In this document: positions 22,773 through 60,203 of the stretch, one piece after another
Layout of the letters: each line of letters starts with the position of its first letter
Position numbering within the stretch: position 1 is the first letter of the stretch
NCBI RefSeq assembly: GCF_964204865.1
Contig: NC_135258.1
Location: 11,151,001-11,215,000, forward strand
Length of the DNA stretch: 64,000 nt
Direction of reading: 5' to 3'
Source: Styela clava
Taxonomy: Eukaryota > Chordata > Ascidiacea > Stolidobranchia > Styelidae
Notes under the pieces: model-generated
The model's input: only the letters and a program-made list of their open reading frames with translations
What the model was told of the DNA's origin: nothing
Database searches by the model: none
Program-made: the position numbers and the translations under genes

Positions 22773-25700
22773 ATGTATTTCATAAAATTCCTGATATTAA
22801 TTGGTCTGTTAGGCGTCACATATTGCCAGGATACAGGCTCTGTTTATGGATTTTGTTCTCAAGTTTACGCAATGAATCGATTCTGCATGAATCAAATAAC
22901 AGGATCACAGGCTGTTGGACACTCTGATGATGTTATGCAGCAGCCTAGAGTTGGAAAAGCCGGCCCAAAGGGTGAAAGGGGAAGTCCTGGAGATCCTGGT
23001 ACCGTAAACTACACTGCTATCAAAGAGAGCATCGAAAAGAAAATAGAAGGTACGTATATGTCCGTAATATGAATCTAATTTTGCATCCTTTCCTAATATT
23101 ACCCATCATTGCATAACATCCCGACAAAGCCATTTAAGCCCAAAATTTCAAGAAAGGGGAAATTTTTTTCAGGTTTGTATAATGACGTAATACGACAAAA
23201 TAATGACGTGCTCCGAACAAAATATCCAACAATATGCTACATAATCTCCCTACAGACTTACTTCGCTATCGTGGTTATCGAAGCTATATAAACGCGCATT
23301 TTCATCTAGCTCGGTTGGTTTATTTGGATAAAGAATTTTTGATAGAAAGCCAGAAAACGTCGATAAATCGTTTAATAATAGAGCAAAATGGTGCTGTAAA
23401 AGGCGAATGAATTTATGTCCCACTGCGTATGAACCAAAGTTTCATTAGAAAAATGTTGAATTTTTTTGTTGTTGTCTAGTTACGCCTTTGTTGTAAACGC
23501 ATGCGATTTTATGAGTTGCCTCTAACGCCAGGCAGTTTAAAATTGAGTCGTCCTTTGCGATGGTAACTGAAAATCGAAATGTTAACATAACTATCGATTT
23601 TTAAACATAGGAATTATTTTTCTCATACAAAATCCTATATCCTATAACATTATACTAGTTTATCGTGTTTAATAGTGAAGTTTGAATTGAAAGCTTCTCC
23701 GGTCTGTTTTATTATTGATATTTCTAGAAACTGAAAATCGGATTAACGTGAAGCTTGAAAGATTAGAACGATTACTTGAAGAAGAAAAAAAGAAAAGCGA
23801 AGAAAGATATGACGAGATGAAAAATGTCACAGATGAAATAACAAAAGGTATTTGTATTTTATGTTCTACATTGCGTTAGTTTTTCGGGATTTTGCAAATT
23901 TGTTGTGCGAAATAATAAAGGAAGGATATAATAATATGATGCTGAAACGGACCATTATGCGATGAAAGCAATCCACAATTATTTTTGTACATTAGATTCT
24001 TTTTAGCAGGCGAACTCACACACAATATGTAATTATGAGACAGCACTGCTTTTTATGAATATTTGTTCTCGTCTATAAGACAAATTGTCCCGTCGTGTTA
24101 TTTGTCATTTTCCAGCTGCCATTTTAGTTTAATGGAAATTATTTTACAATTCGTTTGAATATCAAAACATCTTTCACGCTGTCTTTTTGTCTTAAGAACA
24201 GCAACGCCCGAGAATTTCGGGATGTGAAGAAGCGTCGCAAGATTATGCGAAGTTGTGGGATGGCCGTGGGGGAGTTTTTGATATTTATCGAAACAATAAT
24301 AAATACGAAGTTTATTGCGATCTTACCACAGATGGAGGAAAATGGACGGTGAAATATTTCTTTTTTCTTTAGTCTTGTAGAATGCTCACCCTTTTGCGAT
24401 ATTAGGAATGGTTCATAAAATTCCGAAACATCCGTGTTGGCATTATCATCTATTCTTGTTTTAGATTCCAATAGTTGATTTTTGCTTAAATGCTATAAAA
24501 TAAATTGTAGAACCTTGCAAAACACATACCCAAAAGAAATGTTCAAGTCAATAGACTCTAGAGTAGGGACTCTAGAGCAGAGCATTTAGACTGGCGGGCA
24601 ATACAAGTGTGAAGTAAAAAATTTACATTTTTTGATCAATATTTACAGTGTTAAAAAAGCAAAAGTGAAAAACAATAAGTCTCGTGCAAAAACTAAATTT
24701 AATCGCAATCTCAATGAATTCCTTGAGCTAATTTTTAGCTAAAACATCAAAATTTGGTTTTAGTTTGGTTGTGGCAGCATCAGGCGGGCCAGATTGAATT
24801 ACCCAACGGGCCGAATATGCTCCACGTCAGCCCTATGGTCTTCAGAAATCCCAATGTTGAAAATGGTCTTGTTCAGTTGACTATTTATATAATTTATCAG
24901 GTATTTCAACGTCGCGTAGATGGCACAGAAAATTTTGATCGTGTGTGGGAAGAATATGCTGATGGATTCGGAAGTAAAACAGGAGAATTTTGGCTCGGTA
25001 ATAACAGATATAAATGTACATTTTTAAGCTGGTTGTTATTTCATATTATTCAATAGAGTTGAACTTACCCAAATAAATAGTAGAATAAGATACCGATAAG
25101 AGGTTTAAGCAGGCATCGTATTGCCACGAGTTAAGATCGAAACCAAGATATTTTACCTGTCATTTTGAATAAAAGTCGATTTATCGTAAGTTAATTTACC
25201 GCGATTACACGAAATACCGAGATTTTGTTACTCCGTATATTTTTCTATCCAGGCCTTGAAACGATTCAGCAATTGACCAAGGATGGATCTTATGAACTAA
25301 GGATTGATTTGTCCGACTGGGATAATATTGTCGCTCATGCAAAATACAGGTTTGAATAGTGTTGATAATTTGTTTTTAATTTCCATTACTATTCGAAAAG
25401 TACACACAAAATTCTTAAAAAGAAACTGAAACAGATTCAGTATAATTTGAAAAATTCTGCTTTGAAATTGAAATTGACTGAACACCAAAGTCAATATCAC
25501 AATTAATACTCTAATATTTTTTCTTGGGTAGTACTTTCAAAATAAGTGGAAGAGAAGATAATTATAGACTGACTATTTCTGGATATTCTGGGACGGCAGG
25601 AGATGCTTTAAGATATCACAACAACATTCAATTCTCCGCTCCTGACAAAGATTTGGATACTTGGAATAAACATTGTGCGAAATATTTAAGAGGTGGATGG

Positions 25701-25850
25701 TGGTTTACTAATTGCAACTATACACATTTGAATGGAGAATATCTCAGAACCATACGATCAACCGGAGCTGGAAATGCTGGAATCATGTGGTATGAATGGA
25801 AATCCGACCAAACAATGAAGAAGTCGGTGATGATGTTTAGAAAAATTTAA
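22773..25850 (+). CDS. Ficolin-like secreted lectin, copy A (intact)
   Basis: Predicted secreted, oligomeric carbohydrate/acetyl-group binding protein of the ficolin type. Six exons: 22773-23049, 23728-23847, 24197-24348, 24901-24997, 25253-25349 and 25532-25850, all GT-AG and in phase, 353 residues. Signal peptide about 1-18; Cys28 and Cys38 probably form interchain bonds; five Gly-X-Y triplets at 61-76; coiled coil about 83-132; fibrinogen domain 139-353 with the four expected cysteines ([28 protein letters not shown]), EFWLG, a DKDLD calcium-loop candidate and GGWWF. N-glycosylation sequons NYT and NVT. I chose the Met of MYFIKF, common to all four copies and starting the signal peptide; an in-frame Met 14 codons upstream exists. 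A conserved AATAAAGTC at about 26299 may be the poly(A) signal. It is the only copy without a visible lesion. Confidence 0.9.
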
Positions 25851-29821: not shown

Positions 29822-32597
29822 ATGTATTTCATAAAATTCCTAATAATATATAGTCTGCTAGGCGTCGCATATTGCCAGGATCCCGACTCTGTTTATGGAT
29901 TTTGTTCTCAAGTTTACGCGATGAAACGATTCTGCATGAATCAAATAACAGGATCACAAGCTGTTGGACATTCTGATGATATTATGCAGCAGCCTAGAGT
30001 TGGAAAAGCCGGCCCAAAGGGTGAAAAGGGAAGTCCTGGAGATCCTGGTACCGTAAACTACACTGCTATCGAAGAGAGCATCGAAAAGAAAATAGAAGGT
30101 ACGTATATGTCCGTAATATGAATCTAATTTTGCATCCTTTCCTAATATTACCCATTATTGCTTAACATTCCGACAAAGCCATTTCAGCCCAAAATTTCAA
30201 GAAAGCGGGAAATTTTATTCAGGTTTTTATAATGACGTAATACGACGTTTACTCTTGCCTTTTGCTCCGAACAAAGTATCCAACAATATGCTACATAATC
30301 TCCCTACGGACTTACTTCGCTATCGTGGTTATCGAAGCTATATAAAAGCGCATTTTCATCTATCTCGGTTGGTTTATTCGGAGAAAGAATTATTGATAAA
30401 AAGCCAGGAAACGTCGATAAACCGTTCAATAATAGAGCAAAATGGTGTTGTGAAAAGCGAAAGAATTTATGTCCCACTGCGTATGAACCAAAATTTCATT
30501 AAAAAAATGTTAAATTTTTTTGTTGTTGTCTAGTTACGCTTTTGTTGAAAACACATTTGTTTTATGAGTTGCCTATAACAACATGCAGTTTAAAGTTGAG
30601 TCTTCTTTTGGTATGGTAACTGAAAATCGATTTGCTAAGATAACTATCGATTTATAAACATATGAATTATATATCTCCTACAAAATCCTTAGATGTTTGA
30701 ATTTTACAACAATATAGCAGTTTATCGTGTTTGATAGTGTAGTTTAATTTAAAAGTTTCCCCGGTCTGTTTTATTATAATTGATATTATTTTCTAGAAAC
30801 TGAAAATCGGATTAACGTGAAGTTCGAAAGATTAGAACGGTTACTCGAAGAAGAAAAAATGATAAGCGAAGAAAGATATGACGAGATAAAAAATGTCACA
30901 GATAAAATAAAAGGTATTTTGTATTTTATGTTCTACTTCATTGGTTTCAATAATGCTGTTCAAGCTATTTTTATTGCGTTTATTTTTAAGGTTTTTGATT
31001 CGTTTGATACCTGCAAAACGTGTAATTTGTTGTGCGAAATAATAAAGGCATAAAAATATGATGCTGAAACCGGCATCATAACATAAAAGCAATTCACAAT
31101 ATTTTTTGCACATGAGATTCGAACAGGCGAACTCACACACAATTATGTAGTTATGTGGCAGCGCTGTTTTCTGACAAAATGTCCCGTAGTGTTATTTGTC
31201 ATTTCCCAGCTGCCATTTTAAATTGAAATAGATATTATGGAACTTATTTTACACGTTTAAATATCGAAACATCTTTCCCGCTGTCTCTTTGGTTTAAGAA
31301 CGGCAACGCCGGAGCATTTCGGGATGTGAAAAGGTGTCGCAAGATGATGCAAAATTGTGGGATGGCCGTGGAGGTGTTTTTGATATTTATCGCAACAATA
31401 ATAAATACGAAGTTTATTGCGATCTTACCACAGATGGAGGAAAATGGACGGTGAAATATTTCTTCTTTCTTCAGTTTTGTAAAATAATCACCTTTTTTGC
31501 GATACTTAGCTATAAGCTAAGAATGGTTGAAGTTCAATAATCACCTATTTGCGACAGTAATTTGAAAAGCTAATGGGAATAAGTGATTCGATAAATCCAT
31601 AAAATCAACCTTTTAACTATATACAATTTATCAGGTGTTTCAACGTCGATTAGATGGCACAGAAAGTTTTGATCGTGGGTGGGAAGAATATGCTGGAGGA
31701 TTCGGACGTAAAACAGGAGAATTTTGGCTCGGTAATAACAGATATAAATGTACATTTTCTGGTTGTTATTGCATATTGTTTAGTGAGATTAACCTTTCCC
31801 AAATAAATAGTAGAATATCATACCGATAATGGTTTAGGCAGGCATCGCATTGCCACGAGTTGAGATTGAAACCGAGATATTTTACCTGTCACCTTGAATG
31901 GCAATCAATTTATTGTAAGTCAATTAAACGTAATAACACGAAATACACGAGGTTATGTTATCCAAATAATTTTTCCTTCAAGGATTGAAACGATTCATCA
32001 ATTGACCAAGGATGGAACTTATGAACTAAGGGTTGATTTGTCCGACTGGAATAATAATGTCGCTTATGCAAAATATAGGTTTGTATATAATATGCAGTAT
32101 GCAATCATTTTTTTTTATCTGATTTTTATTACTATTCAAAAAGTACACACGAAATTATTCAAAAAAATAAATAAAATACATTCAAAATAATTTGAAAAAT
32201 ACTACTTTAGGATCGAAATGAACTGAACACCGAAGTCAATATCACAATTAATACTATAATCTTATTTCTTGTCTAGTACTTTCAAAATAAGTGGAAGAGA
32301 AGATAATTATAGACTGACTGTTTCTGGATATTCGGGGACGGCAGGCGATGCTCTGAACGATCATAACAACATGCAATTCTCTGCTCCTGACAAAGATTTG
32401 GATATTTGGAGTGATCATTGTGCAAAATATTTAAGAGGTGGATGGTGGTTTTATCTTTGCGAGAATTCACATTTGAATGAAGAGAATATCTTAGAACCAT
32501 GCGATCAACCAAGGCCGCAGGAGCTGGAATCATGTGGTATCGATGGAGATCCGGCCAAACAATGAAGACGTCGGTGATGATGCTAAGAAAAACTTGA
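29822..32597 (+). pseudogene. Ficolin-like copy B, two frameshifts
   Basis: Six exon equivalents: 29822-30098, 30797-30913, 31299-31450, 31635-31731, 31983-32078, 32277-32597. Exons 1-4 are open and encode the signal peptide, cysteines, Gly-X-Y stretch, coiled coil and the first half of the fibrinogen domain as in copy A. Exon 5 is 96 bases instead of the 97 in A, C and D; the missing base is right after the acceptor (GATTGAAACG versus GTCTTGAAACG) and leads to a stop within about ten codons. Exon 6 has two extra bases after TTGAATG (near 32481), a second frameshift. Splice sites are intact. Either a pseudogene or a pair of sequencing indels. The exon 2 product is one codon shorter than in A. 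Confidence 0.8.
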
Positions 32598-35110
32598 ATA
32601 TTAAATTTTCACATTTTAATTCGGATCATGCGATCTACCGCTAAAATTGTTATCCAATAGGTTTTACCATCAGCATTATTAGTTCTACTATTATAGCCTA
32701 CTTGCTGTGTTCGCGGTAAATTGATCATAAAGCCAACTACAAAGATATTAAAATTTATTCAATAATTGGGCGATTTTCCTGATTCTAAAAACAAAAACAG
32801 GAAAATTATGGTATTTAAAAACAAAAACTATAAAACAAAATAACTATGCTGCGAAAAAGATTTTTATCAATGAATACAGGGCAAAAAGTAGGCTTACACT
32901 ATGGCGTAATATAGGTCTATAAAATTCTACTAAAGTTGGATAATCAATTATAAACATTTGAATATTCATTTAAATGTACGTGTGCTGTAAAACCTTTTCA
33001 TGCGTAAGTTTATGTTAATAAAGTCAAATTTCCTTCATTACATGGTTGTCTGTATTACAAATGCACTGTGGTATTAGAAAGCTCTGAGATGTTTCCTTGA
33101 ATTTTAAAATCCAATCGGACTCTAGAAACTAGGCTTTGGAAAGAATTAAAAAAAAATGGAAGGGTAATAATAAAAATAGCTTACTTACGACTTCTTCCAT
33201 CTCTAAGTGCTGAAAACTAGGAAGATGTTGGTCTTTTAGTTGCAGAGGAAGGCGATTTTCACAACAACCCCAAGATGAACAACAACAGAAAACTTGCATA
33301 ACGACCCGTTGGTACGCTTCGCGTATGAATATTATTATTTATTATATATCATTATTTATTATCAGAAAACCTTTATATTTAAGCGATGTCTTGTTCAAAT
33401 CGAATCTAAAAAGTCTTTTTATTGCGTGTTCGAGGCTTTCAAAAATTGAATTATTTTTGAGTGTCAGACGTTGTGCCTGACTTCAAATTACCCTTGGCCG
33501 ATGAGTATCTATCTCTACTGTTACCACCTGAGAGTAAGAGGTAAATGGATAAAATGGGTCCCTACTCTGTAAATGGACGACACCGTTGCATGTAATGTTC
33601 TTATCAAACACAAAGTTCTTCAGAATGTTTATGAAAATCTTGTGGATGAACATTTGTAATCTTTTGTTGCTGTGTTTAATGAACCAATTAAGCATATTGA
33701 ACATTCAAAAGGCAATATTGAAAGCAAAGCTTGTCTTAATTCTGTCAAATTTACGATTGAAGAAAGAAACGCATGTTCATACAAACCCAAATTAAATCTG
33801 ATTTGCGCAGATTTAGAGACGAGTGCAATGGTCGTGAATGTGATATGTTCCTCTCGAATGTGACTTTTTCGTACAAGTCTTGCGTAAAATACCTCGAAAA
33901 ATGGACAACTTCGTTTGAGGATTTCATATGCTTAGACTTGATACATCTGATCCAAAACCCCGAGTCGAGAAATGTTGAACCGTGTGTTGAGTACTTGCTT
34001 GAGAAAAATGTTTGAGTGATGAACCCAAGTTGTTCGACTAATTCCAGAACTTATGCAAGTTTGTAGAAAAGCAACTTCAATCCAATTCAGTCTCTTGCTG
34101 TAAACTCAAGGCACATGAAAGATGGACAGTATATTTTAAAAGCTGCAGCCCCAGCAACTTTTACAGCGAACTGATAAAGACCTCACAATATTACTTCAGT
34201 AGTATGCTCACTTCAGTTAACAATTTTAACTACATTTCTTTCAGCCAGTTTTACGATATTGCAAAACATAACCCGGCAACATTGACGAAGATTAAATGAA
34301 CTGCCAAATATGTTCTGAGGACAAATAAATTGATTTTTCTGTAAATATTTTTTATAATAAACTAAAAAATACATTATTCCATTGTCGTCACATCGTAGTT
34401 CTACCAAACGATGTGTCCTCCTTTTATGGTTTAGAAATAGGATCACCCTACATTATGCCCAATTGCTCAGCTCCAAGCTGTGCTAGAAGACTGAATGACA
34501 TTGTTCGAATGTTGTGTCGGCATTGTACAGTGTCAAATCGATGTATCGCTATATAGTCTTTGAAAAATTATTCAAACATTGTGCAACGTTGTGTTTATGG
34601 CCAAATTTAACCCAAAATATAGTTTGTTGTACATTTGAATATCTTATAGCTTCACGTTCGAAATCCATCCCCCGGCTTCATTCTAGCTCCTAGAACAGCA
34701 GACTCATTCGATTCGGTAGAACAACACGGCAAATTCCCACAAGACCTCATTGTTCCGTGTAGGCACAAAATGGACGTCCATGGACTCGTTTAACATTAGA
34801 CAAGTTAGTTTCCGCCAGTTGGCTTCATCCTGAAATAAAGTTGACCCTTGCATATTGGTGGATGCTCACACGTAGGCTTTTTTTGAAGTGAATGCCTGCA
34901 ATGACAAAGCCGCCCAATCAAAGTCATGAATGAGTTACATATGATGAAAACTTGTAATCGACTGGTGAAATGTCATAAACCAAAAATGATTGAAAATCAA
35001 TAAAAACTTGATTTAATAAACTGTCCCATGTATTGTTGTTTTGCCACTGCAGCGTTTGTTAAATGCAATGCCCAACAGAACTAGCATACGGTTTGAAATT
35101 AGAATACAGA
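32598..35110. repeat. 3' flank of unit B, near-copy of the unit C flank
   Basis: Nearly the same sequence as 39965-42480, including 3' UTR with TTAATAAAGTC (about 33014), the ATTATTATTTATTATATATC stretch at 33330, the hAT-like transposase fragment and the minus-strand frame at 34213-34446. On the + strand near 34456 the frame MPNCSAPSCARR looks like the start of a THAP zinc finger but it soon stops; the C copy has lost the second Cys. No functional gene is supported. Confidence 0.7.
33586..34020 (+). pseudogene. hAT-like transposase C-terminal fragment (unit B)
   Basis: Overlapping frames on the + strand encode a run with CLNSVKFTIEERNACSY and SCVKYLEKWTTSFEDF, resembling hAT-type transposase C-terminal halves. 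Several frame changes split it, so it is dead. The same fragment is in unit C (40942-41345). In unit A only the matching start segment (about 27515-27600) and a hAT right end remain. The family call rests on motif resemblance only. Confidence 0.4.
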
Positions 35111-37380
35111 ACGCCATAATTACCTTTAACCCAATGCAAAATCACGTCGACGAATTCTTTGTACTACGTCATCAGTGAACCGTACTAAGTATTATATTTA
35201 ATTAAGTTCAATCATTATTTACTACATAACATCTTCAATGTGTATCTCGTCCTAATCGTTATTACTTTTATATTTACAGTCACTCATATTTTCCCTACAC
35301 CCCAGTATTCAAATATTTAACGAAGCTTAATTCTATGGCTGACCAAAACATAAAATGCATAAATTGTGCCAGCGCGTTATAAGGGGTGAGTTTGTTGCTT
35401 AGTTTGATGATTTAAATAATATTACAAACGTTTTACTCTGACTCGACCTGTTATTTATTAATTTTCATGTATATCAACATATGTATTTTTTTATCCCCCA
35501 AATTATTTTTGAAGTTAGGTATAAGGGGCAGCATTACCAGTAACTCGCCTCGGGCAGCAGAAAAGTTTGACACGCCACTGTTGCGCACATCGCAAGATCG
35601 TATCAAGATAAGATTCTTGAGTACCTAGATAAGAGAAACGGCTGGGTACATACAGAAATAAAGTCGGCCCTTTCATATTGGTTGATGCTCACACATAGCC
35701 ACGTTTGAACTGAATGCATGGAATGACAAATCACCCAATTGTGGTCAGTGCAATATTTATACCACGAGACATCAATTAATGGATGTTCGTGAAGAAACAT
35801 TTTTTGACATGAACGAATTACATATGATGAAAACTTGTAATCGCCGGGTGGAATTTCATAATTCAAAATAAAATGATAAAAATAAATAAAAACTTTATTT
35901 GATAAACTGCATCTGGTTTTGTTGTTTTGGCGCTGCAGCGTTTACAAAATTACGCCGACAAATACTTTGTACTACGTCATCAGTGAACCATACTAACGTA
36001 TCATATATGATATACTTCAGGCTTAACTGTTAAAAAATTGTGTTGCGAACGCAAAAAAATCATATAAAATCAAATTCGCAACAAAAAATTTTCCGCGATA
36101 ACTTTAGGTAATGCGGTAAACACAGCAAAAAAAGGCCCAACATTATAATATCAGACTGGGAAGAAGACTAGGCGGGTATTAACATTTGTCTTGTTCCAGA
36201 AAACTAAATTTAGTATAATTATCAGTGAACCATTTGAAACGTACCATGCGTACTGTCGCAAACATTTTTTCGCATATCATTCTTATTAGTACGGACCTAA
36301 AAAATCAGTGGAATGGGGTATTCCCACCAATACTCATTTCCATTCCCACATCCATTAGTTTTCATTGTTTATGAAATTTTCCACTGACTCCACGTAGTCT
36401 GTCTGCGTCACTCGAATAGTCCTTGACTTTGTTTTCGGAAATATCGAAAATGTGAATAGGCCTGCATGCCGTCAATGTCAAGGTTTCCAAGAATCGATAG
36501 AGCTCGGAAAAACTGAGCAAAAACAAATTCGTAACTGTTTTTTTTTTTCATTCGGAGTGATATTTTTGAAATCTGAACATACGGAGGCTTTTTCAGTTGA
36601 ATTGCATAATTAAGACAGTAAGTGCCGCAAGCACATTAACATATATATAATATATGATTTGTGTGAGAGTAGAACAGAGTTGAAAGCTTGGGAGTTGCTT
36701 GCACTTCGAACGAAAAGTCGCCAGAAATTGAAATGTCTGTTTGGAGAAGTACTGAATTTTTGTTGCGGTTCTATCGTATAACTCACTTACCACACTTTAA
36801 ACTGAGTGCTTAAAAGTTCTTTATTGTTGAATTCGGAGAATAATTTAGAATGGAAAAGGTTGTTATAATGGAATAGCAGTCAAATAGAAATACGGTAAAA
36901 TAAAGTGCAACATCGCAGAATGAACCAATATTAACTAAATATGAAACAAGGGGGACACATAATTATTGCATATAAATATAAACTACGCCTCAATAAAGAC
37001 CCTGAGCCCACCGATTGTGGAGATGCAAGTTGGGACGTCACACCTTCAAGCGACAAACGCTGAAAGAGATAGTGCTAAGAAATTAGCGCTCCAAAACGGT
37101 ATTGCACAATTTCTTTGAAAAAACACTCTCTAAATTGAATTAGAATCATGAAAAAAGTAGATCCTGGTGTATTGTGAACTAGGAGAATAGACGATATTTA
37201 TAGATTATGAAAATGTATTACAGAAAGCATACAGTCGTCGACGTAAGCATTAACAGAAGGAGAGGGAGGCAGAAAACCCATAGTCATTCACGCACGAAAC
37301 AATGGGAACCATAACGCAGTATACCATAAATTAGTTACTATTTTTCACTTTTTTGTATCTAATCATAGTCAATTTTTTTT
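35111..37380. repeat. Array repeat blocks upstream of gene C
   Basis: A second copy of the recurrent blocks (35640-37050) follows a partial copy (34740-35170), with about 450 bp of unrelated AT-rich sequence at 35190-35640 between them that ends in a hAT-like …GTTTGACACGCCACTG. No coding sequence is supported; the frames at 35603-35866 and 36593-36793 (-) fall inside repeats present elsewhere in the array without conserved frames. Confidence 0.55.
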
Positions 37381-37408
37381 ATTATATAAGGACTTTAAAT
37401 CAGATATA

Positions 37409-39964
37409 ATGTATTTCTTAAAATTCCTAATATTATTTGGTTTGCTAGGCGTCGCATATTGCCAAGATCCCGGTTCTGTTTATGGATTTTGTTCTCAAAT
37501 TTACGCGATGAATCGGTTCTGCATGAATCAAATAACAGGATCACAAGCTGTTGGACAATCTGATGATGCCATACAGCAGCCTAGAATTGGAAAAGCCGGC
37601 CCAAAGGGTGAAAAGGGAAGTACTGGAGATCCTGGTACCGTAAACTACACTGCTATAGAAGAGAGCATCGAAAAGAAAATAGAAGGCACGTATATGTCTG
37701 TGATATGAATCTAATTTTGCATTCTCTCCGTAGTCTCATTGAGACTTTACTACAAATCAACGTTTCTTACAGTTTCATTGATTGAAGCCTCGCCCTTTCC
37801 AAAATCACACAAATATATTTATTGAGCCATGTGAATAGAAGATGAGGCTGGCAGACTAATCCTACTCATTATTGCTTAACATTCCGAAAAAAAAACTATA
37901 TTTCGTCGAATCGAATTGAAAACACATACTCGTAAACTATGCGTTTTATTTTATGAGTTGCCATCTATTGTTCCCTAAAACGCCATACAGTTTAAAATCA
38001 AATCAACTCTTCCTTTAGGTATGGTGACTGAAAATGTAATTCCCTACATACTATCGATTTATAAACATGGGAAATATATATCTCATATTATAGTATAACA
38101 TCATTCTAGTTTATCGGTGTAATCTAAATTGAAAACTTTTCCGGTCTGTTTTATTATTGATATATTTTTCTAGAAACTGAAAATCGGATTAACGTGAAGC
38201 TTGAAAGATTGGAGCGGTTACTTGAAGAAGAAAAAATGGAAAACGAAGAAAGATATGACGAGATAAAAAATGTTACAGATGAAATAACAAAAGGTATTGT
38301 ATGTTCTACTTAACTAGTTTCAACAATTCCGTTCGAGCTATTTTTACTGATTTAATTTCTTGGGATTTTGATTAATTTTCTACTTGCAAGACGTGTATTG
38401 TTTTGTGCAAAATATTACAGACAGGATATAATAATATGATGCTAAAACTGGCCATTATGACATGAAAGCAATTTACAATTTTATTTGCACATGAGATTCA
38501 AACAGGCGAAAAAACACACAATATGTAGTTATGAGGCAGCACTGTTTTCTGACAAAATGCCCCGTAGTGTTATTTGTCATTTCCCAGCTGCCATTTTAAA
38601 TTGAAATAGATATTATAGAACTTATTTTACTCATTTAAATATCGAAACATCTTTCCCGCTGTCTCTTTGGCTTAAGAACGGCAACACCGGAGGAGCATTT
38701 CGGGATGTGAACAGGTGTCGCAAGATGATGCAAAATTATGGGATGGCCGTGGAGGAGTTTTTGATATTTATCGCAACAATAATAAATACGAAGTTTATTG
38801 CGATCTTACCACAGATGGAGGAAAATGGACGGTGAAATATTTCTTCTTTCTTTAGTTTTGTAAAATAATCACTTTTTGCGATACTCAGCTATAAGCTAAG
38901 AATGGTTGAAGTTCAATAATCACCTATTTGCGACAGTAATTTGAAAAGCTAATGGGAATAAATGGTTCGATAAATTCATAAAATCATCCTTTTAACTATA
39001 TACAATTTATCAGGTGTTTCAACGTCGAGTAGATGGCACAGAAAGTTTTGATCGTGGGTGGGAAGAATATGCTGAAGGATTCGGACGTAAAACAGAAGAA
39101 TTTTGGCTCGGTAATAACAGATATAAATGTAAATTTTCTGGTTGTTAATAATGCATATTGTTTAGTGAAGTTAACCTTTTCCCAAATAAATAGTAGAATA
39201 TTATACCGATAATGGTTTAGGCAGGCATCGCATTGCTACGAGTTGAGATCGAAACCGAGATATTTTACCTGTCACTTTGAATAACATTCGATTCATTGTA
39301 AGGTAATTGAACGTAATACCACGAAATACCGAGATTTTGTTAATCAATATATTTTCCTTCCAGGTCTTGAAACGATTCATCAATTGACCAAGGATGGAAC
39401 TTTTTAACTAAGGATTGATTTGTCCGACTGGAATAATAATGTTGCTTATGCAAAATATAGGTTTGTATAATATATTGAGTATGCAATGTTTTTTATTTCC
39501 AGTACTATTCAACAATTACACACAAAATTATTCGAAAGAAACTAATACAGGTTTAAAATAATTAGAAAAATTCTGCTTTAGGATTGAAATAGACTGGACA
39601 CCAAAGTCAATATCACAATTAATATCCTAACCTTTTCTTGTCCAGTGCTTTCAAAATAAGTGGAAGAGACGATAAATATAGACTGACTGTTTCTGGATAT
39701 TCTGGGACAGCAGGAGATGCTTTAAGAAATCATAACAACATGCAATTTTCGGCTCCTGACAAAGATTTGGATATTTGGGGTGATCATTGTGCAAAATATT
39801 TAAGAGGTGGATGGTGGTTTCATCTTTGCGAGAATTCACATTTGAATGGAGAATATCTTAGAACCATGCGATCAACCAAGGCCGCAGGAGCTGGAATCAT
39901 GTGGTATCGATGGAGATCCGGCCAAACAATGAAGACGTCGGTGATGATGCTAAGAAAAACTTGA
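37409..39964 (+). pseudogene. Ficolin-like copy C, in-frame stop
   Basis: Six exons: 37409-37685, 38174-38293, 38677-38831, 39014-39110, 39364-39460 and 39646-39964. Coding is as in copy A except one extra codon in exon 3 and a stop in exon 5: where A, B and D read a Tyr-Glu pair (TATGAA), C reads TTTTAA at about 39402-39407, ending the protein in mid fibrinogen domain. The rest of exon 5 and all of exon 6 remain open, so the lesion is recent. The donor of intron 1 is GC instead of GT (AGGCACGT at 37684-37691), a tolerated but unusual form. Substitution rather than indel makes a read error less likely. Confidence 0.83.
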
Positions 39965-42545
39965 ATATTAAATTTTCACATTTTAATTCGGATCATGCGA
40001 TCTACCGCTAAAGTTGTTATTTAATAGGTTTTACCATCAGCATTATATATTAGTTTTACTATTATAGCCTACTTGCTGTATTCGCGGTAAATCGATCATA
40101 AAGCCAACTACAAAGATATTAAAATTTATTCAATAATTGGGCGATTTTCCTGATTCTAAAAACAAAAACAGGAAAATTATAGCATTTAAAAACAAAAACT
40201 ATAAAACAAAATAACTATGCTGCGAAAAAGATTTTTATCAATGAATACAGGGCAAACAGTAGGCTTACACTATGGCGTAATATAGGTCTATAAAATTCTA
40301 CTAAAGTTGGATAAGCAATTATATACATTTGAATATTCATTAAAATGTACGTGTGCTGTAAAACCTTTTCATGCTTAAGTTTATGTTAATAAAGTCAAAT
40401 TTCCTTCATTACATGGTTGTCTGTATTACAAATGTACTGTGGTATTAGAAAGCTCTGAGATGTTTCCTTGAATTTTAAAATCCAATCGGACTCTAGAAAC
40501 TGGACTTTGGAAAGAATTTTAAAAAAAATGGAAGGTTAATAATAAAAATAGCTTACTTACGACTTCTTCCATCTCTAAGTGCTGAAAAACTAGGAAGAAG
40601 TTGGTCTTTTTGTTGCAGAGGAAGGTGATTTTCACAACAACCCCAAGATGAACAACAACAGAAAACTTGCATAACGACCCGTTGGTACCCTTCGCGTATG
40701 AATATTATTATTTATTATATATCATTATTTATTATCAGAAAACCTTTATATTTAAGCGATGTCTTGTTCAAATCGAATCTAAAAAGTCTTTTTATTGCGT
40801 GTTCGAGGCTTTCAAAAATTGAATTATTTTTGAGTGTCAGACGTTGTGCCTGACTTCAAATTACCATTGGCCGATGAGTATCTCTACTGTTACCACCTGA
40901 GAGTAAGAGGTAAATGGATAAAATGGGTCCCTACTCTGTAAATGGACGACACCGTTGCATGTAATGTTCTTATCAAACACAAAGTTCTTCAAAATGTTTA
41001 TGAAAACATTTGTAATCTTTTGTTGCTGTGTTTAATGAACCAATTAAGCATATTGAACATTCAAAAGGCATTATTGAAAGCAAAGCTTGTCTTAATTCTG
41101 TCAAATTTACGATTGAAGAAAGAAACGCATGTTCATACAAACCCAAATTAAATCTGATTTGCGCAGATTTAGAGACGAGTGCAATTTTCGTGAATGTGAT
41201 ATGTTCCTCTCGAATGTGACTTTTTCGTACAAGTCTTGCGTAAAATACCTCGAAAAATGGACAACTTTGTTTGAGGATTTCATATGCTTAGACTTGATAC
41301 ATCTGATCCAAAACCCCGAGAAATGTAGAACCGTGTGTTGAGTACTTGCTTGAGAAAAATGTTTGTTTGATGAACCCAAGTTGTTCGACTAATTCCAGAA
41401 CTTATGCAAGTTTGTAGAAAAGCAACTTCAATCCAATTCAATCTTTACTGTAAACTCAAGGCACATGAAAGATGAACAGTATATTTTAAAAGCTGCAGCC
41501 CCAGCGACTTTTACAGCGAACTGATAAAGACCTCACAATATTACTTCAGTAGTATGCTCATTTCAGTTAACAATTTTAACTACATTTCTTTCAGCCAGTT
41601 TTACGATATTGCAAAACATAACCCGGCAACATTGACGAAAATTAAATGAACTGCCAAATATGTTCTGAGGACAAATAAATTGATTTTTCTGTAAATATTT
41701 TTTATAATAAACTAAAAAATGCATTATTCCATTGTCGTCACATCGTAGTTCTACCAAACGATGTGTCCTCCTTTTATGGTTTAGAAATAGGATCACCCTA
41801 CATTATGCCCAATTGCTCAGCTAAAAGTGCAAGAAGACCGAATGACAGTTTTCGATTGTTGTGTCGGCATTGTACAGTGTCAAATCGATGTATCGCTATA
41901 AAGTCCTTGAAAATTAATGAAACATTGTGCAACGTTGTGTTTATGGCCAAATTTAACGCAAAATATAGTTTGTTGTACATTTAAATATCTTTTAGCTTCA
42001 CGTTCGAAATCCATACCCGGCTTCATTCTAGCTCCTATAACAGCAGACTCATTCGATTCGGTAGAACAACACGGCAAATTCCCACAAGACCTCATTGTTC
42101 CGTGTAGGCACAAAATGGACGTCCATGGAATCGTTTAACATTAGGCAATTTAGTTTCCGCCAGTTGGCTTCATCCTGAAATGAAGTTGACCCTTGCATAT
42201 TGGTGGATGCTCACACATAGGCTTTTTTGAAGTGAATGCCTGCAATGACAAAGCCGTCCAATTAAAGTCATGAATGAGTTACATATGATGAAAACTTGTA
42301 ATCGACTGGTGAAATGTCATAAACCAAAAATGATTGAATATAAATAAAAACTTGATTTAATAAACTGTCCCATGTATTGTTGTTTTGCCACTGCAGCGTT
42401 TGCTAAATGCAATGCCCAACAGAACTAGCATACGGTTTGAAATTAGAATACAGAACGCCATAATTACCTTTAACTTAATGCAAAATCACGTTGACGAATT
42501 CTTTGTACTACGTCATCAGTGAACCGTACTAAGTATCGTACGATA
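39965..42545. repeat. 3' flank of unit C, near-copy of the unit B flank
   Basis: It mirrors 32598-35170 in order and sequence with scattered substitutions and small indels (for example the loss of about a dozen bases near 41008 and the extra ATAT near 40045). It includes the hAT-like transposase fragment and the partial array block ending ACGATATTCTACAG, where the 4.8-kb element inserted. Confidence 0.75.
40942..41345 (+). pseudogene. hAT-like transposase C-terminal fragment (unit C)
   Basis: Copy of the fragment in unit B with the same frame breaks plus a 12-15 base deletion near 41008. It therefore predates the B/C duplication, and the duplication moved it as part of a larger segment. Confidence 0.4.
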
Positions 42546-43250
42546 TTCTACAGCAGTGGTTCTCTAACGGTGGGGCGCGCCCCACAAGGGGGCGTAGATA
42601 ATTTTTTAAGTTTGCGTGGAGCTAATTAAAATCAAAATATTTGTTAGATTTGATCTTGTCCGCCTTCTTTTAAATATTTACATTTTAAAATTTTTCATTT
42701 ATTTTATTGTTTACTTTCCATCCACGTATTTTCAACATGTTTTACTACCTGTTATTTGTAGCTTATTGTTAGCTAGTTATTTTTGATGTGGGGCGCGTGA
42801 CTTGACAATCTCTACATTTGGGGCGCGGCTTTGAGAAACTTTGACAACCACTGGTCTGCACTATTTAAAATATTTTTATTTGTATATATTTGTTATTTAT
42901 TTCCTGCTGTAGCGAAGCTGGATAAAAAAAAAAACAGTTTTTTACAGACTCAAAACAATTTCTTCAATTTTGGTGATGGGGCTTATAGTTGTTGAATCTC
43001 AGTGCCATTGTCTTTGCCGTTTTATTGCTCTTCCCGTAATTATCCTATTATCACTAAGTTTTTCAATGCTTCAATAATTTTTTAGTGTTTATTCATTTCA
43101 TTTAAAAATAAAACACAAATAATAAAAACAAATGTGGTTTCCATAGCCAAAGAACAAAATCTCTGCTATAGGTACCTGGAAAATAAAAAAAGGATAAGTA
43201 GAATTAATTAAATCAGAAACTAGTCGTTAATTTCTCTTTCAAATACTCAC

Positions 43251-44430
43251 CTAGATATATATAGGACTTTCCAAAATATCACGGATGTCACCATCCTGAA
43301 AAATTTCCTCCATCACCATCTCCATGACGCTTCGGACCTCATTTTTATCTGTTTTATGAATATTGATCGATTTTCTAAAACTTCTAATAAATACAGCAAA
43401 AATATGGTAACACTCATCGAACCCACGTCTCACAACTTCGTCAATTACGTTTGCCATTGCCATCGAGCCTCACTAACCTTTTGCTCTGGAATCAAAACGA
43501 AATGCAGTTCTTCGTCTTTCTTGATTTTCTCTAAAACATTAACTGCAAGTATTTGTCAATTCTTTGAGACTTCGGACGAACCTGAGCATAATCTTGAAAA
43601 CTGGGTAGATTGCGATTAATTCTATGCACGTCTCTGCGCTTTATGTCAAAAGGAGTCCAAAACACCTCTGGTGATAAGCTTGCATTTTGTTTTCGTGTTG
43701 ACGGAGCGGTTTTAAACGCACCTGAAGGTTCATGTTACTTCCAATGGGCGGCAGTTTCAACAGTTTTAGCGTATAACCTGAATTTAGAGAATGCACACAT
43801 TTTACCTAAACGCATGTTATAATACATATATATAATTCATGGCTGAAATTTGACAATCCGAAAATTGTTTCGTCGACGAATTGTGGATGAACTTAGTCCA
43901 TTATTTAATTGATACATCTACCTATTACTTTCATTTTCCCTTTTTTGCTAGCTTAAAACTCTCCCATCTATAATCTTTCGAGTAATAGTTTAAGGGCAAT
44001 AATTGTATACAAAAAAATTCAAATTTAGCATAGTAAGTAACTTCTATTTACCCTTCTTCTTGATTCAATACACAATTGAATGTGTTCTCTCAAATCAGGA
44101 AGATTCCGGTTAATTTCGTAAATATCGCCTTGTTGTAATGGGTAATGGGTGTCCAGAAAGCAACAGGTGGAAAATGTCTAGTTGCAGGCTTCTTCCGTTT
44201 GATGGTTGCGGTCAATGGCCTTCGGAGCTTTGCTTTCCCCTTTAAAACAAGGGTAACTCTTGTACTATGGAATATGAATTCTGTAAATACTCACTCATAA
44301 AAAAATAATAAAGATCGCAAAACGTTTAAATATTCAATACTTAATTCAATAAAAATACGACTACCTACCATGACCTTTGAAACAACTAATTCTTTTTCGT
44401 CCACAACTGTACCAGGAAGGTTCTGAAAAC
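43251..44430 (-). other. Unidentified exon-like segments inside the hAT block
   Basis: Several minus-strand segments look coding. About 44371-44424 reads NLPGTVVDEKELVVSK between a TTTTCAG and a GTAGGT. 44097-44280 is open for about 60 codons after a TTTACAG, with KRKKPATRHFPPVAFWTP. An overlapping alternative frame has LQQGDIYEINRNLPDLREHI, and around 43600 a similar INRNLP segment recurs. 43251-43463 gives 70 residues starting MAMANVIDEVVRRGF and ending at a stop beside a GTGAGT. I cannot join them into one frame or name a family. They may be a captured or decayed gene. Confidence 0.3.
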
Positions 44431-46469
44431 AAAAGACATTGGGCAAAGTTTAATTTCAATAGGAAGGCTATTTCAATGCATGGTTGATATGACTGATTAA
44501 TTTTAAATATCTCGAGTGAATGAGTCTTTTCAGCTGTCATAGTTGGTAGGCCAGCGTATTTGTTGTCCTGAAATTAAAACCAGAATATTGTTACTTTCAA
44601 AATCACGACGCAGCTGCTTGGGCTATCAAAAAGATATCAAAAATGAGAATTTCGGGCAGATAATGATAGGGAAGGAATTTGAAGTTATTATATTCTCAAA
44701 CAAATGATAAATTAGAAGACCGTGAAATATTTGAGCAATGAAATGAGACTTAACATAACATACCACGTTACTGATTCCATTCAGCTCATTCTGCGCTTTT
44801 ATGCTTGTCCCGTGAAGAAATTGCAATCAGTCCGATGATGCAAAACTCACCTGTAATGAACATTATATTTCTTCGTCATTTTTTTATGTATTAAATAATA
44901 TATATTTATGTGATTTTTACTAAACTTACATTGTCATTCTCAAATATTTGAGACCTTTCAATAGGTGCTGTTGTTATTGTTTTCGACTATTGCGCATCTG
45001 GCGTCTCCGCAATTTATTGAGTCCCTAGGCAACAAAGAGAAAACTGCAAGAAACAAATTTGATTTCAAAATACATTTTTTTTATGATAATTTTTGCTATT
45101 TTATTAATTCGTAATCTAAGAAGTTCCAAAACTCAGTCCATTCATTTATAGACTTTGAAATGGGTCGATATCATAATATGAAACCTCAAATAAAAAGAAA
45201 TACAATCATGTCGGCTTTAAACATGCATTAGTGCAAGGAATGGGTAACTAATCATACACGCGTCAATGCTAATAGAGAAGATTACGGTTCGAATTCATAA
45301 ATAGGTCCTCGTTATTTTGCTCGCTGAAGATCCATACAGTTCAAGAGATATGATGGCTAACGCGGTGCTGCATAATATATTGAACTGTTTAGACATCAAC
45401 TTCTCACTTGACATATCGAAAAATAGCAAGATCTTGTACATTAACCATATTTGTAACTGCTTCTCGCCAGTTTATCAGCCCTAACACTGCAAATACTGCT
45501 GGTTTGATTGCCATTGGTCCCATTTCCTAATTCCAGACGGAACGTTGTTACACAACAAATTTAAGAAGTTTTGCATTGCGTAGAAATCGATCAATAAATA
45601 GTAAGGCAATGATAAAAACAATTCCAACAATAGAACAAAAGTGATGCGTTTATTGGCGTGATTGTAATTCGAAAAATGGCAAAATAAGAACTCCAGATTC
45701 AGAATCTACTGGTATCGTCATCCAAATATATAATCCATTGCTATTGTTATTCCCATTCGTGAATTTATGTCATACATATGACTGAATGACACTATTGAAA
45801 ACTGCTTGTTAAGGTTACTATCCAAATTTAATATAATAAACATAACAAAGGGCCAATCATCTTAATACCTGAAATTAACCAACAAGTCAGAAAAAGGTTA
45901 CATTGTGGCAGCATCGCAACTAAGAACAATTTTCATGAACACCGTAAATATTTGGCCAAGGAACACTCGTGATCGGCAAACAGCGCAAAACGATCGATTT
46001 GTTTAGAGGTGTGATATGAGCAAAAACTGTCATGTCTGTGCCCAATATTTTCTACCTTAGACCCACTAGATGAGGCGTTATAAGCTGCAGTTAATGGACA
46101 AATTGTGCAGTGTTTTGGCGTATTTTTTCCACTACGTGTAGTGTTGGCTAGATATGAATAAATGCGTAGGCTACCAGGAGTGTATGTATAAACAGTAACA
46201 TTCAGATGAGCTCATGATTAGCTGATTTAATATATCTCCATACATTCAAAACGAAGTATTTTAAAATATATATAGAAGAATAATTTGCATAAATAGCTTC
46301 ATTTGTATGACGACTTATTTTGAAAACGTCAAGAAGTATGAACATTGCCCTACAACTACCAATTTTAACAGCTGTTGAAATTCATGTTTGCATAATAAAA
46401 AAATTATTCTAGTTAAATTTCTAGTTAATATTCTAGGAACATTCAAATATTTATCAATCTCGCGATCTG

Positions 46470-46700
46470 TGTCAATCAATCAATCAATCATTTATTCGTC
46501 GTCACAAAAACATCAAATGCACAAAAAATTGGTACAATAAATAAATATAATAATAATGATATTTGTGCGACAGGAGTCGCGAGGGACCATATTAGGTCTT
46601 CAAGCAGCGACACCCAAAGCGCTGTTACTGGTTCAGTGTAAAAAAATAACTACATTTGCCACAAACATTGACTATGCAATAGTCGTTATGATGAACATAT
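46470..46700 (-). repeat. Possible retroposon 3' tail with ATTG repeats
   Basis: On the minus strand the segment ends AATAAATGATTGATTGATTG (46481-46500 region), a short tandem tail like those of CR1/L2-type non-LTR elements. No reverse transcriptase frame is present, so only a truncated end could be here. Confidence 0.3.
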
Positions 46701-46934
46701 TTTGAATCATTGAAAAAATTCGCAGCAAACGCAACTTTACTAAAATCATAAAATAGAGGGAAAAAAAGAAAAACAACTCAACTATAAATTTATAAAAAAG
46801 GCATATTTGAATAAATGTATATAAGTTACATAAAAGACAAACGACAAGCGAGGGGAAAATGGTTAGACCAAAGACAAAATTGTAAGTGATTAATTGAATA
46901 GAAGTTGGTAAGCTCTAATAAATCATAAAACGTT

Positions 46935-46965
46935 GATATGTATATATATATATATATATATACAA
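46935..46965. repeat. (TA)n microsatellite
   Basis: Uninterrupted alternating TA for about 24 bp inside the hAT-bounded block. Confidence 0.95.
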
Positions 46966-47129
46966 TACGCTCCACAGTAAGTGGGCATAAAAGTTACGAA
47001 AGAATGGTAGGCATATGCTTGCTCAATAAATTAAAATATAACGAATTTTGGCATTTTAGTGTAGAGGTTGCACCAAGGTTGGTAAAGTTAAACTACCGGG
47101 TACTTTAGAAATAGACTCCTTACACCTAT

Positions 47130-47172
47130 AGTTCCTCCGGCTTTTTGGGTTGGGTTCCTCCGGCTTTTTGGG
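47130..47172. repeat. Short tandem duplication
   Basis: The 21-bp unit GTTCCTCCGGCTTTTTGGGT occurs twice in direct succession, separated by two bases. GC-richer than its surroundings. Function unknown. Confidence 0.8.
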
Positions 47173-47400
47173 TGTGCTGTGATGATTCATCTCACTTACA
47201 ATTGTATATTTATTACTCATTTTGGATATTTTCATTTTAAAACTTTTCATTTGTCTCAATATTAACGTTCCATCAACTTATTTTCAACGTGTGTTTTGTT
47301 TGGATATGACATATAATATTGTTAGCTAGATATTTTTAAGGTGTGGCTTTTTTTTGGAAGGGCGCGCAGCTTAAAAACTTTGAGAACTACTCTTCTACAG

Positions 47401-48697
47401 GCTTGACAAATAACAAGTCGTGTCTCGCATACGAAGTCCATCCTATGCAAGCGGTGAACGAAAAAACTCATGAAAAATATAAATTTAAATTCGCAAAAAA
47501 AACATTTTTCCGCGATAAATGGTAAAGAATGGTAAAGGTAAGAGGCAAACACGGGGAACCAATAGTATAATGTCAAACTGCAAAGAAGTATAGGCGGGCA
47601 TTAACATTTGGCTTGTTCCAGAAAACAAATTTAAGTATAATTAGCAGCGAACAGTTTGAAACTAGACATGACATACTGTCGCAAACATTTTTTCGCATAT
47701 CATTCTTATTTTTACGGACCTAAGAGGTCAGTTGATGTGGAATCGGGCATTCCCACCAATAATCATTTCCTTTCTCACACCAAATATATTTTCATTTTGA
47801 CTCCAAGTAGTCTGTGTGCGTCACTGGAATAGGCCTCGACTTTGTTTTCGGAATTATAGAAAATATGAATACATGTCGTCAATGTCAAGATTTCCAAGAA
47901 TCGGTATAGAGCTCGGAAAAACTGATCAAAAACAAATTCGTATCTATTTTTTCTTCACTCGGAATGGTATTTTTGAAATATGAACATACACAATTTTCCA
48001 CTTCAATTGCTCAAGACAGCAAGTAGCGCAAGCACATATATATATATACATAAATAATTTGCGTGAGAGTACAACTCAGTTGAATGTTTTTGAGTTGCTT
48101 GTTGCTTGCACAAATGTGAAGTCGCCAAAAATTGAAACATCTGTTTGAAGAAGTACTGTATTTTTGTTGCGGTTCTATCGTAAAACTCACTACTTTCCAC
48201 ATTTCCATCGAGTGTTGTTGTCGAGTTATTGTTGAGTTTGGAGAATAATTTAGTATGGTAATATGTTACAATGGAATAGTATTCAAATAGAAATACGGTA
48301 AAATACAGTGCATCCTCGCAGAAGGAAACAATATTAACTAGAAACAAACGCCGAAAGAGACCGAGCAAAAAATTAGCGCTTCAAAATGGTATTGAACAAT
48401 TACTTTGAAGAAAACACACTCTATATTAGAAAAGGATCATGGAAAAAACTAGATCCTGGTGTATCGTGAACTCCGAGAATAAACGATGTTTATAGATAAT
48501 AAAAATGTATTTACAGAAGCACGCAGTTTCCCACTTCCCAAAGAGGAGGCAGAAACCCACAGTCATTCATGCATGAAACAGTGGGAACCATAACACAGCA
48601 CACCACAAATTCTCTACTATTTTGTAGTTTTTCTGCTATTACTTTAGTCTAATCTTAGTCAATTTTGTTATTATACAAGTACTATAAATCGGATATA
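47401..48697. repeat. Array repeat blocks upstream of gene D
   Basis: Continues the array block interrupted by the 4.8-kb element and then the second block (47640-48360), as before the other genes. The 121-codon minus-strand frame at 48003-48368 lies wholly inside this repeat and is not kept open in the other copies. Confidence 0.65.
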
Positions 48698-51635
48698 ATG
48701 TATTTCATAAAATTGCTAATGGTATTTGGTCTATTAGGCGTCGCATATTGCCAGGACCCAGGCTCTATTTATGGATTTTGTTATCAAGTTTACGCGATGA
48801 ATCGATTCTGCATGAATCAAATAACAGGGTCAGAAGCTATTGGACACTCTGATGATGTAATGCAGCAACCTAAAGTTGGAAAAGCCGGCCCAAAGGGTGA
48901 AAAGGGAAGTCCTGGAGATCCTGGTACCGTAAGCTACACTGCTATCGAAGAGACCATTGAAAATAAAATAGAAGGTACTTATATGTCCGTAATATGAATC
49001 TAATTTTGCATTATTTCCATAAGTTGGTCTCGTTGAGAATTTGCTACAAATCAACGTTTCGTATAGTTTCGGTGATTAAAGCGTCACCGTTCCAAAATCA
49101 CACAAATATATTTATTTAGCCATGTGAATAGAAGTTTGAGCTGGTAGACTAATCCTACTCATTATTGCTTAACATTCCGACAAAACCATTTCGTCGAATC
49201 GAATTGAAAACACATAAGCTATGCGTTTTTATTTCATGAGTCGTCGTCAATAATTGTCTGAAACGCCATACGGTTTAAAATCAAATCAACTCTTCCTTTA
49301 GGTATGGTAACTGAAAATCTAATTCCTAAAATAATATCGATTTATAAACATGGGAAATATATATCTCGTATTATAGATTCATAAAATCTTCAAATTGTAT
49401 AACATCATACTAGTTTATCGTGTTCAATAGTGTAATCTAAATATAAAGCTTTTCCGGTCTGTGGTATTATTGGTATTTTTTTTTAGAAACTGAAAACCGG
49501 ATTAACGTGAAGATCGAAAGATTAGAACGGTTACTTGAAGAAGAAAAAATGAAAAGCGAAGAAAGATATGACGAGATGAAAAATGTCACAGATGAAATAA
49601 TAAAAGGTATTTTATGTTCTACTTCCGTAATTTCAACAATAATGTTGAATCTATTTTTATTGCTTTTGTTTTTAAGGTTTTTGATTCATTTTCTACTTGC
49701 AAAACGTGTAATTTGTTGTGCAAAATAATAAAGTCAAGATATGATAATATGATGCTAAAACCGGTCATCATGTAATGACATGAAAGCAATTCAAAATTAT
49801 TTTGGCACATGAGATTCAAACAGGCGAACTCACACACAATATGTAGTTGTGAAGCAGCACTGTTTTCTTTATAAATATTTGTTTTCGTCTATAAGACAAA
49901 ATGTCCCGTCGTTTTATTTGTCATTTTCCAGCTGCTATTTTAAGTTGAATAATATATATTGTGGAACTTATTTTAATCGTTCAAATATCAAAATATCTCT
50001 CCCGATGTCTCTTTGGCTTTAGAACGGCAACGCCGGAGCATTTCGGGATGTGAAGAGGTGTCGCAAAATGATGCAAAATTGTGGGATGGCCGTGGAGGAG
50101 TTTTTGATATTTATCGCAACAATAATAAATACGAAGTTTATTGCGATCTTACCACAGACGGAGGAAAATGGACGGTGAAATATTTCTTCTTTCTTTAGTC
50201 TTGTAAAATAATCACCCTATTGCGATAATTAGCAAAGCTAAGAATGGTTCAAGTTTATAAAATTACGAAATCTCCGTGTTTGCATTCTTAAATAACTTTG
50301 TTTTAGATTCTAATAGCCGATTGATGCTTAGATGCTTTGAAAAAAAAATTTGTAGCACCATACAAAGCATATACCTGAAAGAGATGTGCAAGTCAATAGA
50401 GTCTTCAGTAATCCCAATGTTAAAAATGATCTTGTTCAGCTGATTATTTATACTATTTATCAGGTGTTTCAACGTCGAGTAGATGGCACAGAAAGTTTCC
50501 ATCGTGTGTGGGAAGAATATGATGACGGATTCGGAAATAAAACAGGAGAATTTTGGCTCGGTAATAACAGATATAAATGTACATTTTTTGATTGTTATTG
50601 CATATTATTCAGTAAAGTTGGACTTCTTCAAATAAATGGAAAAATATAATATCGATAATTGGGTACTCCCGTAGTATGTGTAACAGGTTAGGGTTAAGAT
50701 TTATTTTATTCTGATTTTCCTTTTTCTAGTTCTATTACAAGTTCGGAGACTGTCTGTGTTAGGCAAGTATATACCTCTTGCTCATAGGTTTCAGTCCCTT
50801 TACACAACTTGATGTAAAATAGACGAACAAAAATTAGTTACCTTCATATTGGTACACATACTTCTGAAGCGATTTAGGCAGCCATCGTATTGCCACGGGT
50901 TGAGATCGAATCCGAGATATTTTACTTATCACTATAAATGGCACTCAATTTATTGTAAGCTAATTAAATGTCATAACAGGAAATAGCCGAGATTTTGTTA
51001 TCCAATCTTTTTTTTCATTTCAGGTCTTGAAACGATTCATCAATTGACCGAGGATGGAACTTATGAACCAAGGATTGATTTGTCTGACTGGAATAATAAT
51101 GTTGCTTATGCAAAATATAGATTTGTATAAAATAGGGAGTGATGAATATTATTTATTTTTTTAATATTTAGTACTATTCAGATAGTACACACAAAATTTT
51201 TAAAAAGAAACTAAAACAGATTCAAAACAATTTGAAAAATTCTGCTTTGAGATTGAAATGGACTGAACACCGAAGTCAATATCACAAATAATACCCTAAT
51301 CTTATTTCTTGTCTAGTACTTTCAAAATAAGTGGAAGAGAAGATAATTATAGACTGACTGTTTCTGGATATTCGGGGACGGCAGGCGATGCTCTGAACGA
51401 TCATAACAACATGCAATTCTCTGCTCCTGACAAAGATCTGGATATTTGGAGTGACCATTGTGCGAAATATTTAAGAGGTGGATGGTGGTTTCGTGCTTGC
51501 AAACATTCACATTTGAATGGAGAATATCTTAGAAGCCCGCGTGATACCAAGGCTGCAGAAGCTGGAATCATGTGGCATCAATGGAAATCCAGCCAAACGA
51601 TGAAGACGTCGGTGATGATGTTGAGAAAAACTTAA
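48698..51635 (+). pseudogene. Ficolin-like copy D, splice donor lost
   Basis: Exons: 48698-48974, 49487-49606, 50023-50174, 50464-50560, 51024-51120 and 51317-51635, all open in frame with the A architecture (signal peptide, two Cys, five Gly-X-Y triplets, coiled coil, fibrinogen domain). The donor of intron 5 is AT instead of the GT of A-C (ATATAG|ATTTGT versus ATATAG|GTTTGT at 51121-51122). Read-through gives a stop three codons on, removing exon 6 with the calcium loop and last two cysteines. A cryptic GT four bases on would shift the frame. Exon 5 also has Pro for a conserved Leu. It may make a truncated product or be a pseudogene. Intron 4 has a MITE not found in A-C. Confidence 0.7.
50661..50870. 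mobile_element. MITE in intron 4 of copy D
   Basis: About 210 bp with no counterpart in the same intron of A, B or C. Its ends are inverted: GGGTACTCCCGTAGTATGTG on the left, and CACATACTTCTGAAGC on the right. It includes CAGGTTAGGGTTAAG near the left end. The target duplication is unclear. Confidence 0.7.

Positions 51636-55907: not shown

Positions 55908-60203
<4,296 letters not shown>

Follow-up and report, generated by a model that had tools for sequence, protein, structure and literature searches.

Recent pseudogenisation of three copies is the probable history of a four-gene ficolin-like array in Styela clava

A 64,000-nucleotide stretch of the Styela clava genome (NC_135258.1, positions 11,151,001 to 11,215,000; hereafter the window) contains a tandem array of four ficolin-like genes, called A to D, with six exons each, all of which were modelled on the window sequence. 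The array very probably represents recent and independent pseudogenisation of B, C and D in a birth-and-death family subject to gene conversion, which is a known kind of process and requires no new kind of system. An initial annotation of the window had described one intact copy and three differently broken ones, and the gene models of all six exons agree with it on every lesion. Copy A (exons 22773-23049, 23728-23847, 24197-24348, 24901-24997, 25253-25349 and 25532-25850) is a single open frame of 353 codons from start to stop, and all five introns have canonical GT...AG splice sites. In B, exon 5 has 96 nucleotides (nt) instead of the expected 97 (-1) and exon 6 has 321 instead of 319 (+2), and the frame ends at TGA 32003-32005. 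The stop in exon 5 of C arose by two substitutions (Tyr-Glu to Phe-stop), and intron 5 of D begins with AT. In A, B and C, that donor is GT. No disabling lesion occurs in more than one copy of the array, and B, C and D, each damaged in coding sequence or at a splice site, are probable pseudogenes. Other differences were the use of GC as the intron 1 donor in C (a rarer yet usable donor class), a Leu231Pro replacement in D at a leucine kept by FIBCD1 and tenascin-R in the alignments, an exon 2 one codon shorter in B and an exon 3 one codon longer in C. No fifth copy was found by tblastn within the window or in the 10-kb flanks on either side, where one 25-residue match (E 0.25) was discounted. 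In the whole genome searched (376.6 Mb, 379 contigs), exon 1 of this type matched the four array loci only (E <=1e-5; best 115 of 769 candidates scored).

The predicted product of A consists of a hydrophobic leader, cysteines, about five GXY triplets, a charged helix-like stretch and a fibrinogen C domain. PF00147 spans residues 154-351 (Pfam), which gives the C-terminal fibrinogen domain of ficolins, and N-terminal to it lies a 16-residue GXY stretch, open in all four copies, which gives the collagen-like part; no Pfam collagen match was found in A at E up to 0.1, and the GXY stretch is short. As annotated initially, the leader, the N-terminal cysteines, the GXY stretch and the helix-like stretch are open in every copy (the hydrophobic N terminus, the conserved cysteines and the resemblance of the charged stretch to a coiled coil were judged by eye in the translations). 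The predicted domain plan of A is the ficolin plan, and the product is probably secreted and sugar-binding; A would be expressed and secreted, and would bind glycans via the pocket of this domain. The best PDB match of A was FIBCD1 (4m7f, E 5.3e-53), followed by tenascin-R and ficolin-2. An Asp-Lys-Asp motif is kept in A to D (B read in the frame of A) and, like a cysteine pair, aligns with FIBCD1, whose Asp-x-Asp we take to be the calcium site.

A separate calculation of the ratio of nonsynonymous to synonymous rates (dN/dS) for the two parts of the gene, proposed in the initial annotation, gave no visible relaxation of the second part between broken copies. Between broken copies (BC, BD and CD pooled, pairs that share branches; bootstrap intervals in brackets), dN/dS was 0.44 (0.26-0.77) in exons 1-4 and 0.36 (0.18-0.77) in exons 5-6, and the latter are not visibly relaxed in these copies; in smaller pieces, exons 1-2 gave 0.29-0.45. 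Pairs with A gave 0.32 in exons 1-4 and 0.73 in exons 5-6 (interval of the difference 0.03 to 1.08, zero excluded), and the changes private to A numbered 12N:11S and 21N:4S, respectively (N, nonsynonymous; S, synonymous; Fisher p 0.029). The corresponding counts were 9N:2S and 2N:0S in B (Fisher p 1.0), 10N:9S and 6N:2S in C (p 0.40; the six N count the stop and its neighbour), and 14N:8S and 10N:4S in D (p 0.73); the private changes of B in exons 1-4 look unconstrained. With five open genes of a sister array (described below) as outgroup, the 15 positions of exons 5-6 at which A differs from uniform B, C and D were resolved as seven changes in A and two in B/C/D, with six undecided. Few changes can be counted for neutrality since the lesions, which are recent relative to the divergence. 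Exons differ between copies by 2.6-14.4% and introns by 11.2-37.5% in 29 of 30 intron-pair values (the exception being intron 3 of B versus C, 3.3%); the lower exon divergence therefore points to coding constraint through most of the history of the copies.

The densest amino-acid variation of the gene, including its densest eight-codon window, falls at codons 307-312, which read TNCNYT in A, YLCENS in B, HLCENS in C and RACKHS in D, with 10 amino-acid steps, 0 synonymous ones and conserved blocks adjoining. By sequence alignment, with the FIBCD1 numbering placed by us, these codons correspond to RNCHTS of FIBCD1. Excerpts of PMC10825690 describe N-acetyl ligands of FIBCD1 as bound by the Cys414/His415 backbone and a second pocket outlined by His382 and Arg412-His415, and note that TL5A and ficolins do not conserve Arg412 and Asn413. 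The ligand residues Tyr405 and His415 of FIBCD1 are not kept in the alignment of A to D, where (residue numbers again placed by us) Tyr405 aligns with Leu300 and His415 with Asn, Glu, Glu and Lys, respectively. The open sister genes also differ among themselves at the first two codons of the 307-312 segment (c2 QT, c4 KS, c5 KS, c6 NG, c7 KS). The hotspot fits what is known of ficolin-type receptors and may be the more interesting detail of the array. The ligand segments of the now-broken copies look as if they were once in use, and since exons 5-6 are not relaxed and the hotspot sits on the ligand segment, the ligand half was probably functional, perhaps diversifying, until recently.

Relationships among the copies change along the gene. 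A groups with B and C with D in intron 1, intron 2 is mixed, and from intron 3 to early intron 4 A groups with D and B with C; late intron 4 through intron 5 is mixed again, A groups with C and B with D at the start of exon 6, and A with D and B with C in its second half and the 3' flank. Conversion tracts ending inside exon 6 are present, and the 141-base identity between B and D is a presumptive recent gene conversion. The longest identical run of the ligand half of A with another copy is only 46 bases, which indicates no recent conversion there. Duplication together with gene conversion would explain these mosaic relationships. The 3' flanks of B and C differ by 2.5%, and the exon 6 lesion of B, which has no counterpart in C, is therefore younger than the split of these flanks.

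A sister array (C18:14.009-14.081 Mb) contains seven copies with the same stem and domain, plus two exon 6 fragments. These copies were read in five exons (1 and 3-6), and splice sites were judged where aligned. Five of the seven (c2 and c4-c7) are open, with canonical splice sites at those aligned, and two (c1 and c3) are broken; both arrays together hold 6 open and 5 broken genes out of 11. Lesions of c1 affect the presumed intron 2 acceptor, exon 3 (a 10-base insertion), exon 5 (a stop) and both intron 5 sites, while c3 has the same 10-base exon 3 insertion, a 13-base gap across the end of exon 1 and its donor, a changed intron 5 donor and deletions in exon 6. The lesions of the sister array are thus not limited to the second half of the gene.

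The premature stop lies 73 nt upstream of the last exon junction in B and 53 nt upstream in C (gene-model coordinates); B transcripts should, and C transcripts may, meet nonsense-mediated decay. Junction-dependent decay spares transcripts with a stop in the last exon, where the frame of D ends (...AKYRFV) if intron 5 is retained, and such a transcript could escape decay. Splice-site pairs that would restore the frame by alternative splicing, which the initial annotation had named as a possible refutation, were found by sequence scan in D. Of 118 donor/acceptor pairs scanned for intron 5 of D, five reach the normal stop, all with the GT donor at 51081, which with the normal acceptor restores the frame but drops the end of exon 5, leaving a product without a conserved strand. 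For intron 4 of B, 48 pairs were scanned, and frame rescue was rejected because the six longest readings all go out of frame in exon 6; the scan of C covered retention of intron 4.

On the preferred explanation, duplication and gene conversion would have produced four copies with a common stem and differing ligand segments; A would keep coding for the full protein, and in B, C and D recent mutations, a different one in each, would have left the fibrinogen domain incompletely encoded. These three would then be young pseudogenes or, in the animal sampled, null alleles, and their truncated products would misfold. The private lesions, the constraint until recently and the spread of lesions in the sister array support such decay of redundant copies, one of two interpretations offered initially. 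The other, that truncated copies were selected as secreted oligomer subunits lacking the ligand pocket (for example diluting or capping oligomers of A), is very improbable, although the oligomerisation part is open in all four copies and D with a retained intron 5 should evade decay under the general rule given above. Excerpts of PMC1242226 also report truncated fibrinogen domains in 24 or 25 of 53 Anopheles genes, some supported by expressed sequence tags (ESTs), although misannotation is suspected there. Several observations count against simple decay. The pooled private changes of B, C and D are 33N:19S in exons 1-4 (omega about 0.57, p 0.04 versus neutrality) and a neutral-looking 18N:6S in exons 5-6 (omega about 0.97, p 0.55; counts small), a pattern that selection for truncated products would give and that leans to this second idea. 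All disabling lesions of this array lie in exons 5-6, as the initial annotation had stressed. In c1, the stop (C18:14010210-14010212) occupies the codon that corresponds to the stop codon of C (Glu230), and the intron 5 donor has changed from GT to AT in both c1 and c3, as in D. In addition, exons 3-4 alone gave a dN/dS of 0.66-0.87 between broken copies (wide intervals, few changes), the hotspot reached a permutation p of just 0.04 gene-wide and 0.056 within exons 5-6, and the evidence is the genome sequence of one assembly.

Intact A has the same shift between the two halves, and a stronger one. The shift is therefore no signature of truncation, and rapid evolution of the ligand half is a likelier cause than loss of that half. 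Confinement of the lesions to exons 5-6 is suggestive only, as these make up 39.2% of the coding sequence and the chance of all three copies being broken there is about 0.06; both broken sister genes are also damaged in exon 3, and one also at exon 1. The parallel lesions were rejected as a sign of selected truncation, since the upstream exon 3 insertion already breaks c1 and c3; this frameshift is common to both and the stop is in c1 only, so the stop most simply postdates it, and chance recurrence is preferred. Selection of truncated subunits further conflicts with unrelaxed exons 5-6 between broken copies, with a hotspot sitting on the ligand segment and with the private changes of B in exons 1-4, and half a fibrinogen domain is unlikely to fold. 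Similarly hard to credit is the idea that B, C and D persist because they yield truncated regulatory subunits, for which D would be best placed via intron 5 retention, or because they store different ligand segments that gene conversion could bring into a working copy. A doubtful but possible version of recent pseudogenisation, counted inside it, is that the lesions are segregating null alleles of working genes, of which one haplotype was assembled. The lesions seem recent, with constraint on exons 5-6 still visible and the exon 6 lesion of B younger than the B/C flank split, but null alleles would have to be frequent for one haplotype to carry three null copies out of four. It is very unlikely that D is unbroken, with its AT-AG intron 5 spliced or its frame, open elsewhere, restored through the GT at 51081: ATTTGT misfits the U12-type AT-AC consensus, a protein made with the cryptic donor would be missing a conserved strand, Leu231Pro is a further change in D, and the same GT-to-AT change is found in two sister copies broken otherwise too. 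Sequencing or assembly errors, conceivable for lesions known from a single assembly, are highly unlikely, given that the lesions of C and D are substitutions, that the indels of B lie outside long homopolymers and that nearby coding exons (ribosomal L4, two methyltransferases and OGT-type TPR) have clean frames of 168-328 amino acids (aa).

Vertebrate ficolins and tunicate ficolin-like proteins (Halocynthia roretzi, Ciona) have in common with the array proteins a leader, cysteines, GXY repeats and a C-terminal fibrinogen domain; the array genes differ in that their GXY triplets number only about five and precede a charged helix-like stretch, and the tunicate proteins were likened by plan alone. 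Ficolins with collagen were found by a screen in vertebrates and urochordates, to which the introduction adds amphioxus (PMC11312191, in part), and FIBCD1 is a plasma-membrane protein (PMC3908420, in part). Loss of ficolin-3 resembles the array in that a ficolin gene is lost as a pseudogene or by frameshift: according to excerpts of PMC6379837, the H-ficolin gene is a pseudogene in rodents, and a patient homozygous for a human FCN3 frameshift had no detectable serum ficolin-3. That case differs in lacking a tandem array of near-identical copies. The FREP families of molluscs and insects are likewise expanded fibrinogen-domain families, and gene conversion occurs in snail FREPs (PMC7588048, in part); snail FREPs have immunoglobulin domains, whereas none was found in A with Pfam. 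Genome-wide, at least 161 fibrinogen-domain matches (exon level; best 150 of 718 candidates) were found on contigs C6, C13, C19 and others, many in regular series (for example C19 5.3-6.1 Mb); this genome has a large expansion of such domains.

Table 1. Positions in the window of the four gene copies and of features that distinguish or connect them
Feature	Position	Strand	Basis or counterpart
Copy A, intact ficolin-like gene, 6 exons, 353 aa	22773..25850	+	gene model; Pfam PF00147 E 5.2e-62
Copy B, broken copy of same gene	29822..32597	+	gene model
Copy C, broken copy of same gene	37409..39964	+	gene model
Copy D, copy of same gene broken at splicing	48698..51635	+	gene model
Copy B, 1 base lost at exon 5 start (frameshift)	31983..31986	+	gene models, codon alignment
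Copy B, 2 extra bases in exon 6	32479..32483	+	gene models, codon alignment
Copy C, TAA stop in exon 5, codon 230 of A	39405..39407	+	gene model, codon alignment
Copy D, intron 5 donor AT instead of GT	51121..51122	+	GT in A, B and C
Copy C, GC donor at intron 1	37686..37687	+	gene model
Copy D, Leu231Pro	51068..51070	+	alignments with FIBCD1 and tenascin-R
Copy A, codons 307-312	25707..25724	+	equivalents B 32452-32469, C 39821-39838, D 51492-51509
Copy B, 141 bases at exon 6 start identical to D	32257..32397	+	D 51297-51437; identical-run comparison
Copy B, 164 bases at exon 6 end identical to C	32482..32645	+	C 39849-40012; identical-run comparison
B/C similarity, intron 1 to 3' flank	30737..35192	+	38117-42536; 93.3% identity, 4479 aligned columns

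Elsewhere in the window, the gap between C and D is longer than the other gaps because of a stretch of about 5 kb (42553-47392) that has no similarity to the remaining window at repeat-search thresholds. Two tandem Methyltransf_11 genes (16117-17228 and 17653-18750, minus strand; 90.4% identical) both have long open frames, and a DDE_Tnp_1_7 transposase fragment (4111-4398, minus strand) lies between OGT-type exons. High-identity repeats at 58184-59290 comprise an exact direct duplication of 118 bases and inverted arms of 157 (100%) and 263 (99.2%) bases. Scanning the window against Rfam (gathering threshold) and for tRNAs found nothing.

The array offers a clean small example of birth and death among putative innate-immunity lectins, in which a common stem is combined with a ligand segment whose differences are all amino-acid replacements, followed by independent loss. 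Together with the sister array, the four loci could serve to gauge the turnover rate of ficolin-like recognition genes.

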